Below are positions 4,441 to 57,900 of a DNA stretch of 64,000 nt, one piece after another; within the stretch, counting starts at the first letter, position 1, and every line of letters starts with the position of its first letter. The notes below the pieces were generated by a model. It saw only the letters and a list, made by a program, of their open reading frames with translations, did no database searches and was not told the origin of the DNA. The translations under genes and the position numbers were made by a program. The stretch is taken from positions 868,001 to 932,000 of the forward strand of contig CANXME010002568.1 of NCBI GenBank assembly GCA_948144175.1, given 5' to 3'. This DNA comes from Closterium sp. NIES-65 (Eukaryota; Streptophyta; Zygnematophyceae; Desmidiales; Closteriaceae).

Positions 4441-7400
4441 CTAAACAGCAGATTTACCAATGCGGTCAAAGGCACTGATGCCAGCCACGCGGCCATACAC
4501 CACACACTCAAGCAGGGAGTTACCACCCAGACGGTTTGCGCCATGCAGCCCACCTGTGTGAAGCACAAGAACACAAGCCATGAGCTCAACAGGCATACTA
4601 AGACGTGTACAAACGCCAACACTTGCATCAATTGGGAAACATCTGCTTCCGTGCGCATCTGTTACGTGAGCCTGACAATTTGTTCCACTCACCTGTCACT
4701 TCGCCGGCACCCAAGAGCCCTGGAATGGGCGTGCAATCTTCCTTGAATTACAGCCGCTGGTGTCAAAATCACCCAACCTTGCATCACGACAAATGGCAGC
4801 TGGTCACCTTTCACGTAAACCGGATTATCCTCATTGCTCACCTGTCACTTCGCCAGCTCCAAAGAGGCCAGGAATGGGCGAGCCATCCTCCTTGAGGATG
4901 CGGCCGCTGGTGTCAAACTTGAGCCCTCCCATGCAGTAGTGCAGCGACGGCGTGATGATGGCCACGTACAGCGGGGGCTCCGAGGAGCTGCACGCGAGGG
5001 AGAGACACAGGAGGGGACAGGGTGTTGGTGAAGCGGTGGGAAGTTGAGATGGAAAAGAGGGACGTTTGACTTGAGCCCTCCCGTGCAGTAGCGCAGCGAT
5101 GGCGAGATGATGGCCACGAACAGTGGAGGCTTCGAGGAGCTGCACGTGAGGGAGAGACATAGGCGGGGACAGGGTGATGGGTGAAGCGGTAGGAAGTTCA
5201 GATGAGACAAGGAAAAGTTTGACTTGAGCCTCCCATGCAGTAGCGCAGTGACGGCGAGATATGGCCATGTACAGTGGGGGCTCCGAGGAGCTACAAGGGA
5301 TGGGGACATGCAGGGGCAACAGGGATGGATGGGTTTGGGAGAGGAGAGGTGGCGAGGTGGTGCGGAGTTCAATGGGAATGGGTTAGAGGATAACAAGAGC
5401 GCGGAAGAAAACAACCCACTGGCCAAGGCAAATGACTCAGGTAACCTGTTGGTGCAGAGGGTGCTGTTACACAAGGACATTTAGGACTTTTGAGGCGCCT
5501 CAAAAGGCATGGAATGAGCTTACCGAGCGGAGCATGTAAGACTTCCAAGGCACTTAGTGAGCTTACGGAGTGGAACATGCACGACTTATGAGGTGCCTCA
5601 AAGGAAGGGAATTGAGGCGGAGAGCACTCACTTGAAGAGCACAGGGAAGACGGTCTTGCCGAAGGGGTCGCCCTTCTCTGCGTCATGGTGGCCGTACGCG
5701 TCCAGAGCAGCCTTCACGTTGGCTGCTGGCAGCTTGGTGCCCTCGCTCAGTGCCTCCACGCTGTCAAACTGGGCGGGATAAGGCACGCCGGGGCGAAAAG
5801 GTGGGGGGGCAGGGGAGGAAAGAGAGAAAAAGTGGGTCACAAGAACAGAGGAGAGTGGGGTCTGAATGAAGAAGGTGAGGTGGGCTGGGTGGAAACATAA
5901 AAGGTGATAACTTTGTTGAAATCACAACTGGCCTGCGCATGGCAATCAGCCATCTTCCATTGCTCTAGGCACCGCCTGAATGAACTGCCCATGGCAAGGC
6001 GCCTTTGTTGAAAGGATTTCAGTGCAAATAGTTTCGTGACAGATAGTGACTGTCAACAGCTGAACTCCTGACTTAGCTTGAGATACGGCATTATTCCAAA
6101 CCGATGTTCACATCCCTGCCCCGTTGCTTCGCTCCTGCACCCACCCGCCTTTCTCACCCTCCTGCATCACCCTCTTCCTTTACACTCCCTCCCCATACCC
6201 GCACCTCACCTTGCGGATAAGCCCCTTGCCGATGTAGAACTGGCAGGAGAGCGGGTCGAACTTGTTGATGGCCTCCTGGTTTAGAATCAGGTACGACACA
6301 GCGGGCATGTCCGCGCCCCCTGCTGGCGCGTCTGGCACCTCCGGGAGTGGGCCGCAGTGCTTCAGAATCGCCTCCACCACCTGAGAGCAGACGGAAGGCG
6401 GTGAAGGAAGTATGTAGAGTGGGGAGTTAAGCGGTGAAGGCAAGCCAGGAGGATCATTAAGTAATGCCCACCCTTTCCACCCTTCCCACCTTGCTCTGTC
6501 TGCCCAACCTTGCCGCCCTTTCCACCCTTCCGGCTCTTCCCAACCTGCCTCCCCACCCTTCAAAGTTGCCACCCTTCCCACCCTGCCCCCCCTTCCCGCC
6601 CTTCCCATCTTTACCACCCTTCCCATGTCCCACCCTCCCCACCCTTGCCAACCTACCCACCCCTCCCACCCTGCCCACCCTTCCTGCGCCGAACCAGATC
6701 TCGCAGAAATCCTCGCCTCTGTGCATCTCTCACATCCCTTTCCCCGCCTGCCACCATTCCCTCGCCCCAGCCCACCTCAGCTTCACTCACCGACCACTCC
6801 TCGCAGTCAGTCCGCTCGTGTACTCACCGCGTCCCTGGTAGTCAACTCGTTGACGAAGCGGCCCTTCTCATTCTAAAGAATCCCGCCTCATCCGCGCAGG
6901 GCTTCGGGCGCGAGGAACTTGACGGGGTTGCGCGGGTCCTTGGGATCCACGTACCCCGTCGGGTGCAGCTGCACCTAATCCAAGTGCACCAGCCCCGCGC
7001 CCGCACCCATTCCCACTTCCACCCATATCTCCCTTTGCCCTCTCCCCTCTGCTTCATCACTCGTGGCGCCCATCCCTCGCAACAGCTCGATTACTCACAG
7101 CGTCTCTCGTAGTCAGCTCGTTGACGAAGCGGTCGCCCTTCTCATTCAAAAGAATACCGCCGCATCCGCGCAGGGCCTCGGGCGCGAGGAACTTGACGGG
7201 GTTGCGCGGGTCCTTGGGATCCACGTACCCCGTCGGGTGCAGCTGCACCTGATCCATGTGGATCAGCCCCGCGCCCGCCGCCACGCCCAGTCGCACGCCG
7301 TCGCCCGTCGCGAACGGCCCGTTGGTGGTCGCCAGGTTTCGCAGCTTAGGAGTGTGCTGGTCCAGCAGACCTCCCTCGGCCTTGTCGGCGGAATAGCCGC

Positions 7401-54900: not shown

Positions 54901-57900
54901 GTCCCCCCCAAGCGTGGTTACGTTGGAGGCGCCGGGCTGCTGGCGTGCAAGCAGCAGATTGAGAAGGCGTTAACGCCCATTACGAAGACGTGGAAGGAGA
55001 CTGGCATGACGATCGCAAGCGATATGATGAGGGACAAGAGCGGGCGTGCGCAGATGAACATCCTCTGCATCAACGCCAGTGGAGCGGTTTTCCAGGAGGC
55101 GGTCGACTGCAAGGCGGAGACCAAAAGCGGAGCGTTTATCATGAGCGTCCTGCAGCCGGTCATCGAGAAGGTAGGACCGGAGCACGTCGTCGCGATTTGC
55201 ACGGACGGCGGCAGCAACTACGTGTCCGCCGCCAAGCTGCTGCAGAAGAAGTACCCGCACATTGAGTTCGTCCCCTGCACCACTCATGTGCTCGACTTGC
55301 TGTTGGAGGACTTCGGCAGCATGGCTTGGGCGCAGGAGGTCGTGCCTGTGGCGACCGACATGATTTCGTTCATTCGCAGCCACACATGGACGCGTGCCTT
55401 CCTGCGCTGTCCCGAGTTGCACGGGGAGGAGAAGTCGCTTCAGCCGCTGCGACCGGCGGGCACGCGCTTTGGGACGCAGTACATAGCGGTGTCTCGTCTG
55501 CGTGAGATTCGCCCTCAGCTGACGGCGATGGTGACGCACAAGGATTGGGAGGAGAAGGGGAGGAAGCAGCTGACTGGGAAAGACTTTTAGGCGTCGGTGT
55601 TGGATGTGGAGTGGTGGGCAAAGGTGGATACCTTCGTGAACGTAATGGCGCTGCCGTACAAGGTGATGAGGAAGACGGATGGGCCGGCGAAGGGGATGAT
55701 GGGGGCGATGTACGACATGATGCTGCAGCTGACGGAGGACTTGTCGGCGCTGTTGGAGAGTGCGGATTGTCCGCTCAGCGATGCGGATAAGGAGGGGTTG
55801 CTGGAGCACTTGAGGCGGCGTTGGGACGAGAGTTTGGCCTGTCCTCTTCACGTGGTAGGCCGGATTCTGAACCCGGTCAACCAGGAGGAGGGGATCTATC
55901 TCAAGGACATTGAGTGCACCAGGGTGATGAAGGCCTGGCTGTCGCGCTCGAGGGCCTTCGTCGACAAGTACTGGAAGAAGGATGGCGAGAGGACTGGAAC
56001 GATGATGGCGCTGCAGGAGGGGATGCTGGCGTACATTGAGGGCAGGGGGTGCTTTGGGACGGAGGAGGCGATAGAGGGGCGTGCGCAGCTGAAGGCAGGG
56101 AAGGGGGACATGGCGACGTGGTGGAAGATGAACGGCTGGGAGTATGCCGATCTGACAGGCCTTGCAATCCGTGCGGTGTCACAGGCCGTTTCCGCTTCTC
56201 CGTGCGAGCGGGGATGGGCTACGTGGGATGGGGTGCACACGGCGCGCAGGAACAGGTTGGGGTCGGAGAAGGTGCGCGACCTGGTGTTCGTGGCGCACAA
56301 CTGGAAGGCTGTGCTCGGCCACCACGAGGGTGCAGTTGTTGCAGGGCCAAGTGGGGAAGTGAGGAAGGCGGGGGTAGTGGAGGGGAACATTCCCACCCCT
56401 CCCCTCCCCGAGGGGTACAGGTTGGAGGAGGATGGGGAGAGGGAGGTGGACGAGGACGACATGATGGTCGATGAGTATAAGGACCAGGATGAGAAGAAGG
56501 ATAGCGAGGAGGACGGGGATGAGTGACTGGTTGCTTGCATGCAGTGCTGTGGTGGTAGTTTAATAGTATGCGTGTTCTTCAGTGATACGATAAACTATGT
56601 ATGTATGTGACCTTGGGACATGTGTGTGTGTGACAATACGTGACTCACCTTAATCTTGAGATTTGGGGGAAAATTTGATGTTGGGGCCAAGTTTGCCTTG
56701 AAAGTGTGGAACGTTCCCCCCCCCCCCCCCCCCCCCCCTCATCCCATGCCCTATAACAAGTTTTTTTGCCTGCCCGGGGGTTTTTTTTGCCTGCCCGGGA
56801 CTGCGTCTTTTGGTGCGTCTTTCTGGTCCTGGTGAAGCGTCCTGCGTCCGGACGCATGCGTCTGGACGCATGCGTCCAGGACGCAGGACGCGTCTTTCGC
56901 ATCATAGGTACAAGCTGTACCTGATCACAACGGCCCCCAGCGTGGTGTACCGTGTGGTGAAGCGGGACGGGTGGCTCATGATTAATCAGGCACCCACATT
57001 CTCCCTCCCTGCTTCCTCCTTGCCACACCTTACAGGAGCGACTAGAGCAAGAGTACGAGCTGTACCTGATCACAACTGCCCCCAGCGTGGTGCACCGTGT
57101 GGTGAAGTGCGACGGGTTGCTCATGCGTCAAGCACTCACATTCTGCCTCCCTCTCCCCCTTTCCCGCACCTCTCAGGAACGCTTGGAGCGAGAGTACAGC
57201 CTTGATCTGATCACAACCGCTCCCAGCGTCGTGTACCGAGTGGTGAAGCGGGACGGGTCGGTGGTGGAGTGTTCCAACCCCGCTGACATGCCGGATGCCT
57301 CTGTGCGCACTGAGATCCAGGAGCCCTACGTGCGGGTGAGTCCTCATGGGGGGTGAGTGAGTCTCCAGCTAAGGAGGATGAGCAGAGCGGCCTGGGTGTG
57401 GGTGAGTGTCAGGGTGAGGGGTGAAGCGGGACGCCTCCGTGGTTCAGTGGTGGAGTGTTCCAACCCCGCTGACATGCCGGATTCCTCTGTGCGCACTGAG
57501 GTCCAGGAGCCCTACGTGCGGGTGAGTGAGTCGCGTGGGGGGTGTGACGTGGGGTGAGTGGGGGGGGCGGAAGGACGAACTAGATCCAGCACCCCTATGT
57601 GTGGGTAAGTGGGTCTCGAGAGGGATGAGCGGGCTGGCTGCAGGTGAGAGCGTGCGGTTTAGGGGAGCCTGAGTGGACTCCCTTCATAGGGTCGACTCAA
57701 ATGTAGTTTGAGTCGACTCAACAGTCTACCCCCAAGGACTACAGTGGCACGCTCATGGGCCAGGTGGAGGAGAGGCGGGGCGAGTGAAGACATGTATGCC
57801 CCTCTTCCCTCCCTCGTATCTGCTGCTTTTTCCCGTTACCTCTCCAGCTGGACATCCTAACCCCCAACCCAAGGATTACATCGGCAACTCTCATGGACCT

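Follow-up and report, generated by a model that had tools for sequence, protein, structure and literature searches.

Short palindromes with a fixed core form a single dispersed family in the nuclear DNA of the unicellular desmid alga Closterium, and their association with the joints of direct duplications is real and genome-wide. We consider it likely that they are an ultrashort dyad-symmetric insertion family whose members enter the DNA together with a target duplication in one event; this judgment covers one-event insertion, from which the retroposon, MITE, and organelle alternatives weighed below differ mainly in donor or enzyme and with which they partly overlap. The stretch analyzed here (the window, 64 kb) is part of Closterium nuclear DNA, and the searched assembly of this nuclear genome comprises 874 Mb.

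Across the whole assembly, TTTTGAGNCGNCTCAAAA has 24,964 exact copies (0 for a reversed-pattern control), and the core with any center is found 30,327 times (control: 4). The palindromes, which include several subfamilies and range from about 18 to 54 bp, share the constant center TTTTGAGNNNNCTCAAAA and have ragged insert ends. Their halves vary in a complementary manner: RR or YY combinations, half of all possible N/N' pairs, account for only 333 of the 24,964 exact copies, so that these two bases of the core nearly always pair, while in unrelated genomes 30 of 131 core matches have a complementary N and N', which is the chance level. Genome-wide, the symmetry also includes the outer pair within the four central bases. 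In about 209 kb of scanned loci, mostly chosen for the core, 88 of 90 occurrences of the arm GACTCAAAAG lie inside palindromes. The sites that we read belong either to contigs that carry transposons and genes of nuclear type or to a contig of 2 Mb.

An earlier note on this DNA had reported about twenty sites sharing the core, and the window indeed contains 22 matches to TTTTGAGNCGNCTCAAAA at up to 3 mismatches (0.26 expected; 22 reached in none of 100 shuffles). A motif-free scan for spacer-less palindromes scoring at least 8 gave 19 in the window compared to 0 to 4 in 20 block shuffles, and the core is present in 11 of these 19, including 4 of the 5 top-scoring ones. Fifteen sites had been named as duplication junctions; 11 are clear (18372, 19219, 36471, 39959, 40032, 40226, 40547, 40839, 43710, 50330, and 52133), whereas the four at 22531, 22693, 32629, and 53050 are older or looser. 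The copies at 19188–19267, described as 30 bp long, are identical as claimed but measure 32 bp with 18 bp between them, and the 46-bp copies at 36426–36540 were confirmed with 2 mismatches. The sites and their duplicates are as follows (palindromes without strand; C1671 is a contig homologous to the window):

5487–5506, core palindrome CTTTTGAGGC / GCCTCAAAAG; no clear duplicate, probably old; same in C1671 with one mismatch
5586–5603, decayed core palindrome, 3 mismatches; no clear duplicate
18294–18368 (+), 75-bp left duplicate at the 18373 site, with 2 mismatches relative to the right one
18372–18391, core palindrome, TCGA center, between the 75-bp copies; also in C1671
18401–18475 (+), right duplicate of the 18373 site
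19186–19217 (+), left 32-bp duplicate of the 19220 site
19219–19238, core palindrome, ACGT center; C1671 lacks exactly 50 bp here
19236–19267 (+), right 32-bp duplicate of the 19220 site, 32/32 identical; AA common to palindrome end
22530–22547, decayed palindrome between 125-bp copies (22337–22461 and 22548–22672)
22694–22711, decayed palindrome in the next unit of the 22530 duplication (copies 22553–22617 and 22725–22789)
23524–23541, core palindrome, GCGT center; no clear duplicate
24053–24070, decayed core, 3 mismatches; no clear duplicate
32629–32646, core palindrome; 162-bp copies (32448–32609 and 32706–32871) end 19 and 59 bp away
36426–36471 (+), left 46-bp duplicate of the 36472 site
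36471–36490, core palindrome, TCGA center, with the in-frame reading FESTQKS within an ORF that we take to be DCAF4-like; present in C1671
36495–36540 (+), right 46-bp duplicate of the 36472 site, 44/46 match to left copy
37408–37425, decayed palindrome, ACGT changed to ATGT; duplicate only at a distance
39960–39977, palindrome in 73-bp tandem unit; one extra unit in C1671
40033–40050, palindrome in adjoining 73-bp unit
40176–40217 (+), left 42-bp duplicate of the 40229 site (right copy 40255–40296)
40218–40257, 40-bp palindrome, AATT center, 2 mismatched pairs
40548–40565, palindrome at junction of tandem exon-like duplicates
40840–40857, palindrome at next junction of the 40548 array (269-bp copies 40568–40836 and 40860–41128)
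43584–43601, core palindrome, ACGT center; weak duplicate, score 13
43654–43687 (+), left 34-bp duplicate of the 43713 site (right copy 43740–43773, 33/34)
43704–43739, 36-bp palindrome, ACGT center, one mismatched pair
50330–50353, perfect 24-bp palindrome between copies of about 96 bp (50231–50326 and 50376–50476); in C1671 too
52046–52130 (+), left 85-bp duplicate of the 52146 site (right copy 52185–52269, 86% identical)
52133–52176, perfect 44-bp palindrome; region matched on 30 other contigs
53051–53069, decayed palindrome at a gapped duplication (53011–53052 / 53139–53180)
57706–57723, core with 2 mismatches beside a second half-palindrome; no clear duplicate

At 11 of the 22 sites, the palindrome center lies in the gap that separates two tandem copies (mean 1.8 and maximum 10 under circular shifts of the site set), and with three obvious array copies dropped it is 9 of 19 (shift mean 1.5; 0.011% of shifts reach 9). 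Alignment of the 150-bp flanks scores at least 20 at 14 of 22 sites versus 688 of 3,000 random window positions, a high random rate that is due to the many tandem duplications filling the window and that rises further near palindrome sites (1,278/3,000); the case is carried by the gap test, by the comparison with non-core palindromes, and by the counts across the genome. Six sites have no convincing duplicate (5488, 5586, 23524, 24053, 39865, and 57706), and those at 37408 and 43584 have only a distant or weak one. As previously stated for the copia and hAT elements, the 11.2 kb of the window marked as such hold none of the 22 sites.

On other contigs, palindromes likewise sit at duplication joints far above chance in the sample read, one of the checks that the earlier note had proposed. 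Close direct duplicates (score of at least 12 within 45 bp) flank 53 of 58 exact core copies, which come from 8 loci in the window and about 36 separate ones elsewhere, and are also found at 84 of 300 random Closterium positions because this DNA is rich in tandem repeats. The association is specific to the core in its algal context: The identical 18-mer in prokaryote or viral contigs has close duplicates in 0 of 108 cases among the matches listed, and core palindromes lie at joints in 74 of 80 cases versus 2 of 17 for other palindromes of the same DNA. The former count includes some sites of overlapping loci twice; for distinct sites it is 67 of 75, the other 8 being without a duplicate scoring 12. 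It had also been proposed that a repair process leaves a fold-back at each joint, but this is disfavored as formulated, since the palindromes belong to one dispersed family whose core is fixed and since non-core palindromes are so rarely at joints.

At 27 single sites (insert of at most 60 bp), the duplicates measure 13 to 85 bp (median 36) and the inserts 18 to 60 bp (median 32), and longer duplicates of 125, 162, and 269 bp exist in the window. No target-end consensus was found at the duplicates analyzed. Core decay and duplicate divergence are uncorrelated (Spearman −0.16, p 0.41 for 27 sites, where 23 of the cores are perfect; 0.03, p 0.80 for 63 sites), and at the 52146 site the duplicates have diverged yet the palindrome is intact. 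All five single sites probed show the order D-P-D (D, duplicate; P, palindrome), and two tidy arrays have one D in excess of P (6 D/5 P and 10 D/9 P), while the counts differ from this pattern in three of the five probed arrays, where the probes were short or loose.

Homologous loci show palindrome and one duplicate jointly present or absent. Between C1671 and the window there are three differences that each consist of a palindrome and one duplicate, and a fourth that consists of a nine-palindrome array. Around the 19220 site, 1,171 aligned bases contain 2 mismatches and one 50-bp gap, corresponding to the 18-bp insert and one 32-bp duplicate that C1671 lacks; at the 52146 site, every homologous C1671 unit has a single duplicate and no palindrome. 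Conversely, two insertions are found only in C1671, and the window is empty at both. A NIES-53 protein lacks the 36472 insert along with one duplicate, and one paralogue offers a further, noisy empty site. Palindrome and duplication therefore come or go together, and the empty sites in the sample read, at DNA and protein level, carry one flank copy rather than two, as had been predicted for a joint origin. Together with the joint-site counts, this supports the original suggestion that a very small insertion element duplicates its target over long and variable lengths. Exact deletion between D copies could also yield an empty site, and the direction of gain is not polarized.

Patch-mediated repair in plants creates duplicates by overhang fill-in. 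In Closterium, a palindrome copy may enter a break whose strands are cut in a staggered manner, mostly some 11 to 85 bases apart, and fill-in would then leave the target as a direct duplicate on either side (D-P-D), with insertion as the presumed direction of change. The donor could be a double-stranded or hairpin copy of existing elements, and the core might be recognized by a protein. Later on, the D-P-D unit may expand into D(PD)n arrays, since it is already a tandem repeat, and then decay. More tentatively, the palindromes might represent a new class of nuclear mobile DNA, a selfish sequence that has neither ends nor body but only a central 18-bp dyad and that spreads as a hairpin or duplex oligonucleotide captured at long staggered breaks. 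Each landing would write a tandem duplication of tens of bases, which would make the element a main engine of small exon duplications and of minisatellite formation in Closterium.

Although palindromes and tandem repeats pose difficulties for assembly, an assembly or library artefact is hardly conceivable: Substitutions in the duplicates are independent of each other, palindromes show decay, C1671 shares 16 of the 18 window palindromes compared, and one palindrome continues the reading frame of an ORF for which another strain has a homologue. Palindromes are also fragile sites, and in a window this rich in duplications palindromes of whatever origin might stall replication or break, with repair duplicating the DNA beside them. 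This account, which we regard as very improbable, is already largely refuted by the rarity of duplicates at other palindromes and at the identical 18-mer elsewhere, by the D-P-D order and the one extra D of the tidy arrays, and by the absence of P along with the second D at empty sites.

Classical MITEs (miniature inverted-repeat transposons) combine inverted repeats, target duplication, lack of coding capacity, and many copies with fixed ends and a fixed duplication length. A MITE reduced to its terminal repeats would share with our palindromes the inverted-repeat structure, dispersed copies, target duplication, and empty sites, yet it is quite unlikely, because here the center and not the termini is conserved, insert ends and duplicate lengths vary, unlike in DNA transposons generally, and arms are seldom found alone in the loci scanned. 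Variable duplicate length is instead shared with SINE/LINE retroposons and would fit a small hairpin RNA that the enzyme of a non-LTR retrotransposon copies into genomic DNA; by eye and unscored, one end also seems better kept in some TCGA and long ACGT copies. We nevertheless consider retroposition doubtful: Both ends are ragged, no consistent A-rich or simple-repeat tail is apparent by eye among the listed inserts, and within the four central bases, which would form the loop of an RNA hairpin, the outer pair is symmetric too. Organelle-derived palindromes could have served as filler in nuclear break repair, as passages of PMC2670323 propose for nuclear copies in Volvox, and the assembly includes COX1-bearing contigs, but more than 30,000 copies in several subfamilies suggest spread within the nucleus and make this origin improbable.

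One-event insertion would mean that a primer-length sequence is mobile in a nuclear genome at some 30,000 copies and that a single event connects palindrome, staggered break, and duplication. The palindrome would then be remarkably small for a mobile sequence, and some of Closterium's many tandem duplications would stem from it; by seeding minisatellites and duplicating pieces of exons, it would offer a testable explanation of part of the abundant small duplication in this genome. In our judgment, usual repeat finders are expected to miss it due to its shortness, and its conserved core is a ready bait for finding the protein involved. Kawaguchi et al. attribute Closterium genome-size variation to copy number variation, and the string "palindrom" does not occur in their main text (PMC10407611).

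As the earlier note had supposed, no described element has this form to our knowledge, and none appeared in the literature searched, among the matches listed. Bacterial REP sequences are moved in trans, and REP/RAYT transposition proceeds via single strands, where long target duplicates are not expected, whereas the Closterium palindromes have them. Like these, REP sequences with their RAYT transposases are short dispersed palindromes (PMC2817692). Short palindromic selfish repeats are already known in organelles according to parts of PMC2670323 and PMC4478555. Those of Volvox carteri mitochondria and plastids are described as 11 to 79 nt long, located in non-coding DNA, very numerous, deemed selfish, and mostly with 3- to 5-nt loops, and some copies lie in the nucleus, where they are regarded as inert; "duplicat" and "target site" do not occur in the main text (PMC2670323). 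Compared with this account, the similarly short and dispersed Closterium palindromes are loop-free, lie in nuclear contigs, are flanked by long target duplicates, and differ in their presence between contigs that are nearly identical. GC clusters of yeast mitochondria such as GC42 are likewise short and palindromic with mobile behavior and presence/absence between strains, but the passages concerned give them defined ends and duplicates of 2 to 3 nt (AG or ACT), unlike the long ones here (PMC4478555). Overhang fill-in at staggered breaks, as treated in passages of PMC8355091, explains short tandem duplications of tens of bases. The Closterium duplicates resemble these in length, appear as one difference, and lack a target consensus; those passages have no recurrent insert, whereas Closterium joints carry one recurrent core in place of a random or locally templated sequence.

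The window is nuclear DNA of Closterium, a zygnematophycean alga, and encodes on its minus strand (14721-15773) a PF03151 sugar-phosphate/nucleotide-sugar transporter family protein with 99% identity to a protein of Closterium sp. Naga37s-1. The dispersed palindrome claimed for it in an earlier note is clearly present: 22 sites match the 18-bp search motif of the core, TTTTGAGNCGNCTCAAAA (core probe, TTTTGAGNNNNCTCAAAA), at up to three mismatches compared to an expected 0.26, and a motif-free search for spacer-less palindromes found 19, with this core in 11. The palindrome arms reach past the core and differ from site to site, with their symmetry kept. 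Rfam gave no match in the window at gathering thresholds. Palindromes from the motif-free search include:

52133-52176, perfect palindrome of 44 bp
43704-43739, palindrome of 36 bp with one mismatched pair
40218-40257, palindrome of 40 bp with two mismatched pairs
50330-50353, perfect palindrome of 24 bp

These palindromes had also been described as lying between the copies of tandem duplications, and this is true of a part of them. The gap between tandem copies holds the centre of 11 of the 22 window sites (circular shifts of the site set gave a mean of 1.8 and never reached 11). For six sites no convincing duplicate was seen, and for two the duplicate is weak or distant. Flank alignments scored at least 20 at 14/22 sites, compared to 688/3,000 random window positions and 1,278/3,000 random positions near sites. 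Random positions score this often because tandem duplications are unusually frequent in the window; this control is therefore weak by itself, and we brought in the gap test, palindromes without the core, and copies of the motif outside Closterium as additional controls.

Across the assembly (874,075,685 bases in 2,400 contigs), there are 24,964 exact copies of the motif, compared to 0 of the reversed pattern; if the four central bases are left free, the counts are 30,327 and 4, respectively, and about half of the genome copies (13,080) have a TCGA centre. The closeness to duplicates extends beyond the window: within 45 bp of the palindrome, a direct duplicate scoring at least 12 was found at 53 of 58 exact sites (46 at a score of at least 20), compared to 84/300 (76/300) random Closterium positions under the same scoring. 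Eight of these sites lie in the window, and the other 50 are listed copies on contigs C6, C9, C10, and C13, picked by list order with flanks ignored and representing, arrays included, around 36 separate loci. Among the matches listed for prokaryote and viral contigs, the same 18-mer had a duplicate at 0/108 copies at either threshold; the viral contigs gave 11 single 18-mer matches that serve as controls only, and copies too near a contig end were left out (of 131, 108 were kept for duplicate scoring and 125 in the analysis that also covered the N positions). In 209 kb of algal DNA, a close duplicate scoring at least 12 accompanies 74/80 core palindromes (67/75 distinct sites, as overlapping loci count some sites twice) versus 2/17 palindromes of other sequence, which shows that the association belongs to the core sequence and not to palindromes generally. 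One of the 8/75 core palindromes without a duplicate reaching score 12, C9:23287, has a perfect 11-bp repeat.

We described the anatomy of the insertions at 27 single sites with inserts of up to 60 bp, taken from core palindromes with a duplicate score of at least 12. Their duplicates measure 13-85 bp (median 36) and their inserts 18-60 bp (median 32), and no base preference or consensus was found at the ends of the duplicated target in this sample. Older window sites have longer duplicates of 125, 162, and 269 bp. At 17/37 single sites, neither copy starts more than 6 bp from the palindrome arms. The insert ends are ragged, with the family cut on one side at TTTTGAG, ACTTTTGAG, GACTTTTGAG, TGACTTTTGAG, or GGTGACTTTTGAG and similar steps on the other, so that variation falls on the ends and the centre stays constant, the reverse of the pattern of a transposon. 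Palindrome decay and duplicate divergence did not correlate in this sample, nearly all of whose cores are exact because of how it was chosen. At window site 52146, the duplicate copies are only 86% identical, yet the 44-bp palindrome is perfect; the duplicate on contig C1671 at this locus resembles the left copy of the window in its second half, so that the right copy may have been altered by conversion or have changed separately.

On contig C1671 there is a homologue of the window in reverse orientation. Agreement varies along it: one stretch of 1,171 bp has 2 mismatches, and others match at 84-91% (elsewhere 2 mismatches in 3,501 and 5 in 2,401 aligned bases, and 49 in 1,102 with many repeat differences). 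It may be a second haplotype or a copy-number duplicate; the window itself lies on contig C2270. Sixteen of the 18 window palindromes compared (which leave out 32629, 37408, 40840, and 57706) are common to both contigs and two are absent from C1671. The shared palindromes are:

5488, 5586, 18373, 22530, 22694, 23524, 24053, 36472
39865, 39960, 40033, 40229, 40548, 43584, 43713, 50333

Palindromes are involved in four differences between the two contigs. At 19220, C1671 has one 50-bp gap (19186-19235) with 2 mismatches in 1,171 aligned bases, and this gap matches the 18-bp insert together with one 32-bp copy exactly. At 52146, C1671 passes from the upstream flank through one duplicate copy to the downstream flank without a palindrome, in a stretch that is itself repeated in 246-bp units with one such copy per unit. 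At two further loci the window is the empty side: nine palindromes at 51-bp spacing in C1671 correspond to one copy of the unit's duplicated segment and no palindrome in the window, and after 43854 C1671 is 49 bp longer than the window by a duplicate copy and a TCTTGAGAATTCTAAAAA palindrome. The empty sites found therefore hold one flank copy and no palindrome, the state that the earlier note had named as support for a joint origin, and since both the palindrome and the second copy are missing, the gain or loss affected both at once. An identical empty allele would result from deletion between the copies, so that single cases are not polarised. Repeat differences without palindromes are also present between the contigs, and the 39960 array differs by one 73-bp unit.

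Other homologues bear on the 36472 palindrome, whose ORF, like the gene region at 40300-43170, we take to be DCAF4-like. A protein of another strain, NIES-53, has one GDSG...RLKAV stretch where the window ORF has two with FESTQKS between them (57% overall identity, at the protein level only); the Naga37s-1 model (P0121), sole match to the first DCAF4-like protein query, leaves out that ORF region. A distant paralogue on C6 has one copy fewer and no palindrome in a noisy alignment.

Both N positions are unconstrained in the search pattern; of the 131 matches listed from unrelated genomes, 30 have complementary bases there, which is chance level. In Closterium the two are complementary at 50/50 fetched exact sites and 7/8 window sites; over the whole genome, RR and YY combinations (eight, or half of those possible) make up 165 + 168 = 333 of 24,964 copies, a count with the other four non-complementary combinations outside it. 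Symmetric centres (TCGA, ACGT, GCGC, and AATT) and symmetric outer arms (including GGTGAC...GTCACC, GAGTGAC...GTCACTC, and CACGTGAAAGAAGGAGTG...CACTCCTTCTTTCACGT) were found. The two halves have thus changed together, from which we infer either hairpin copying or a perfectly palindromic donor.

The reading to which we commit is that the palindrome would insert at a staggered break and that fill-in would copy the target. Fill-in of overhangs produces duplicates of this kind, tens of bases long and with no target preference, as a study of induced breaks in mammalian cells shows (PMC8355091). The distinctive feature here is that the same sequence family is inserted every time. This would call for a recurrent donor. 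It would also call for specific recognition of the core, as palindromes of other sequence are not amplified. The donor may be duplex DNA or a hairpin of either DNA or RNA, the RNA hairpin being mildly disfavoured because the symmetry of the central four bases speaks against an RNA loop. A locally templated insert was rejected: wherever the core is intact, the longest exact matches (eight listed for each of 14 sites) fall on other palindromes, and only short scattered matches were obtained for the sites that are decayed or odd (40229, 23524, 37408, and 40548). A native palindrome arm at the left duplicate edge, seen by eye at 18373, is absent at most other sites, and a bZIP-site or other regulatory role appears improbable from the variation of the centre among the four tetranucleotides and the decay of copies. 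Two tidy arrays alternate duplicate copies (D) and palindromes (P) in the order D(PD)n, with 6 D and 5 P at C6:131439 and 10 D and 9 P on C1671, and fit a single insertion whose new tandem repeat later expanded. Among ten probes in all, short or loosely matched ones gave 8 D and 5 P at C6:107990 and 16 D and 6 P at C13:83548; the window array at 39960/40033 has 3 D and 3 P, the decayed 39865 included.

Volvox organelles contain short palindromic repeats (PMC2670323), and yeast mitochondria GC clusters (PMC4478555), that are nearest in form; both are organellar and, in the consulted parts of these articles, not shown with long variable duplicates of the Closterium kind. Membership among MITEs or SINEs fails on the features tested. 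The literature searched contains neither three intact 18-mers of the core nor two 16-mers taken from them, articles joining Closterium and palindromic present no such element in title and abstract start, and the matches listed, as far as their text was available, contain no description of one, in agreement with the earlier claim that no described element has this form. We therefore consider the Closterium palindromes to be short palindromic selfish DNA of a previously undescribed variety; they have a real chance of being a class of their own.

Several other repeats were observed. At least seven full matches to the 246-bp unit lie at C1671:114203-115914 (loci L176-L182), homologous to window 52185-52420, presumably a LepA-like exon. 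The gene region at window 40300-43170 carries a long array of approximately 162-bp units with the same exon piece copied in each, and a 17-bp minisatellite of around 35 or more units (36628-37400) adjoins the 36472 palindrome. A 20-bp minisatellite of the form GCCTCAAAAGTCNNNAAAGT at L149:3041-3165 contains the half-core and lacks the mirror half. COX1 pieces repeat on contigs C155, C241, C311, and C1956 (on C155 and C241 in both orientations), which are probably mitochondrial DNA with repeats or concatemers. A copia-like ORF (25028-27574) lies between 432-bp, 100% identical repeats (24188-24619 and 27892-28323) that are inverted and not direct; either an unusual element or a fold-back made in assembly could account for this. 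Segments related to them occur, in opposite orientation, within 62130-64000.
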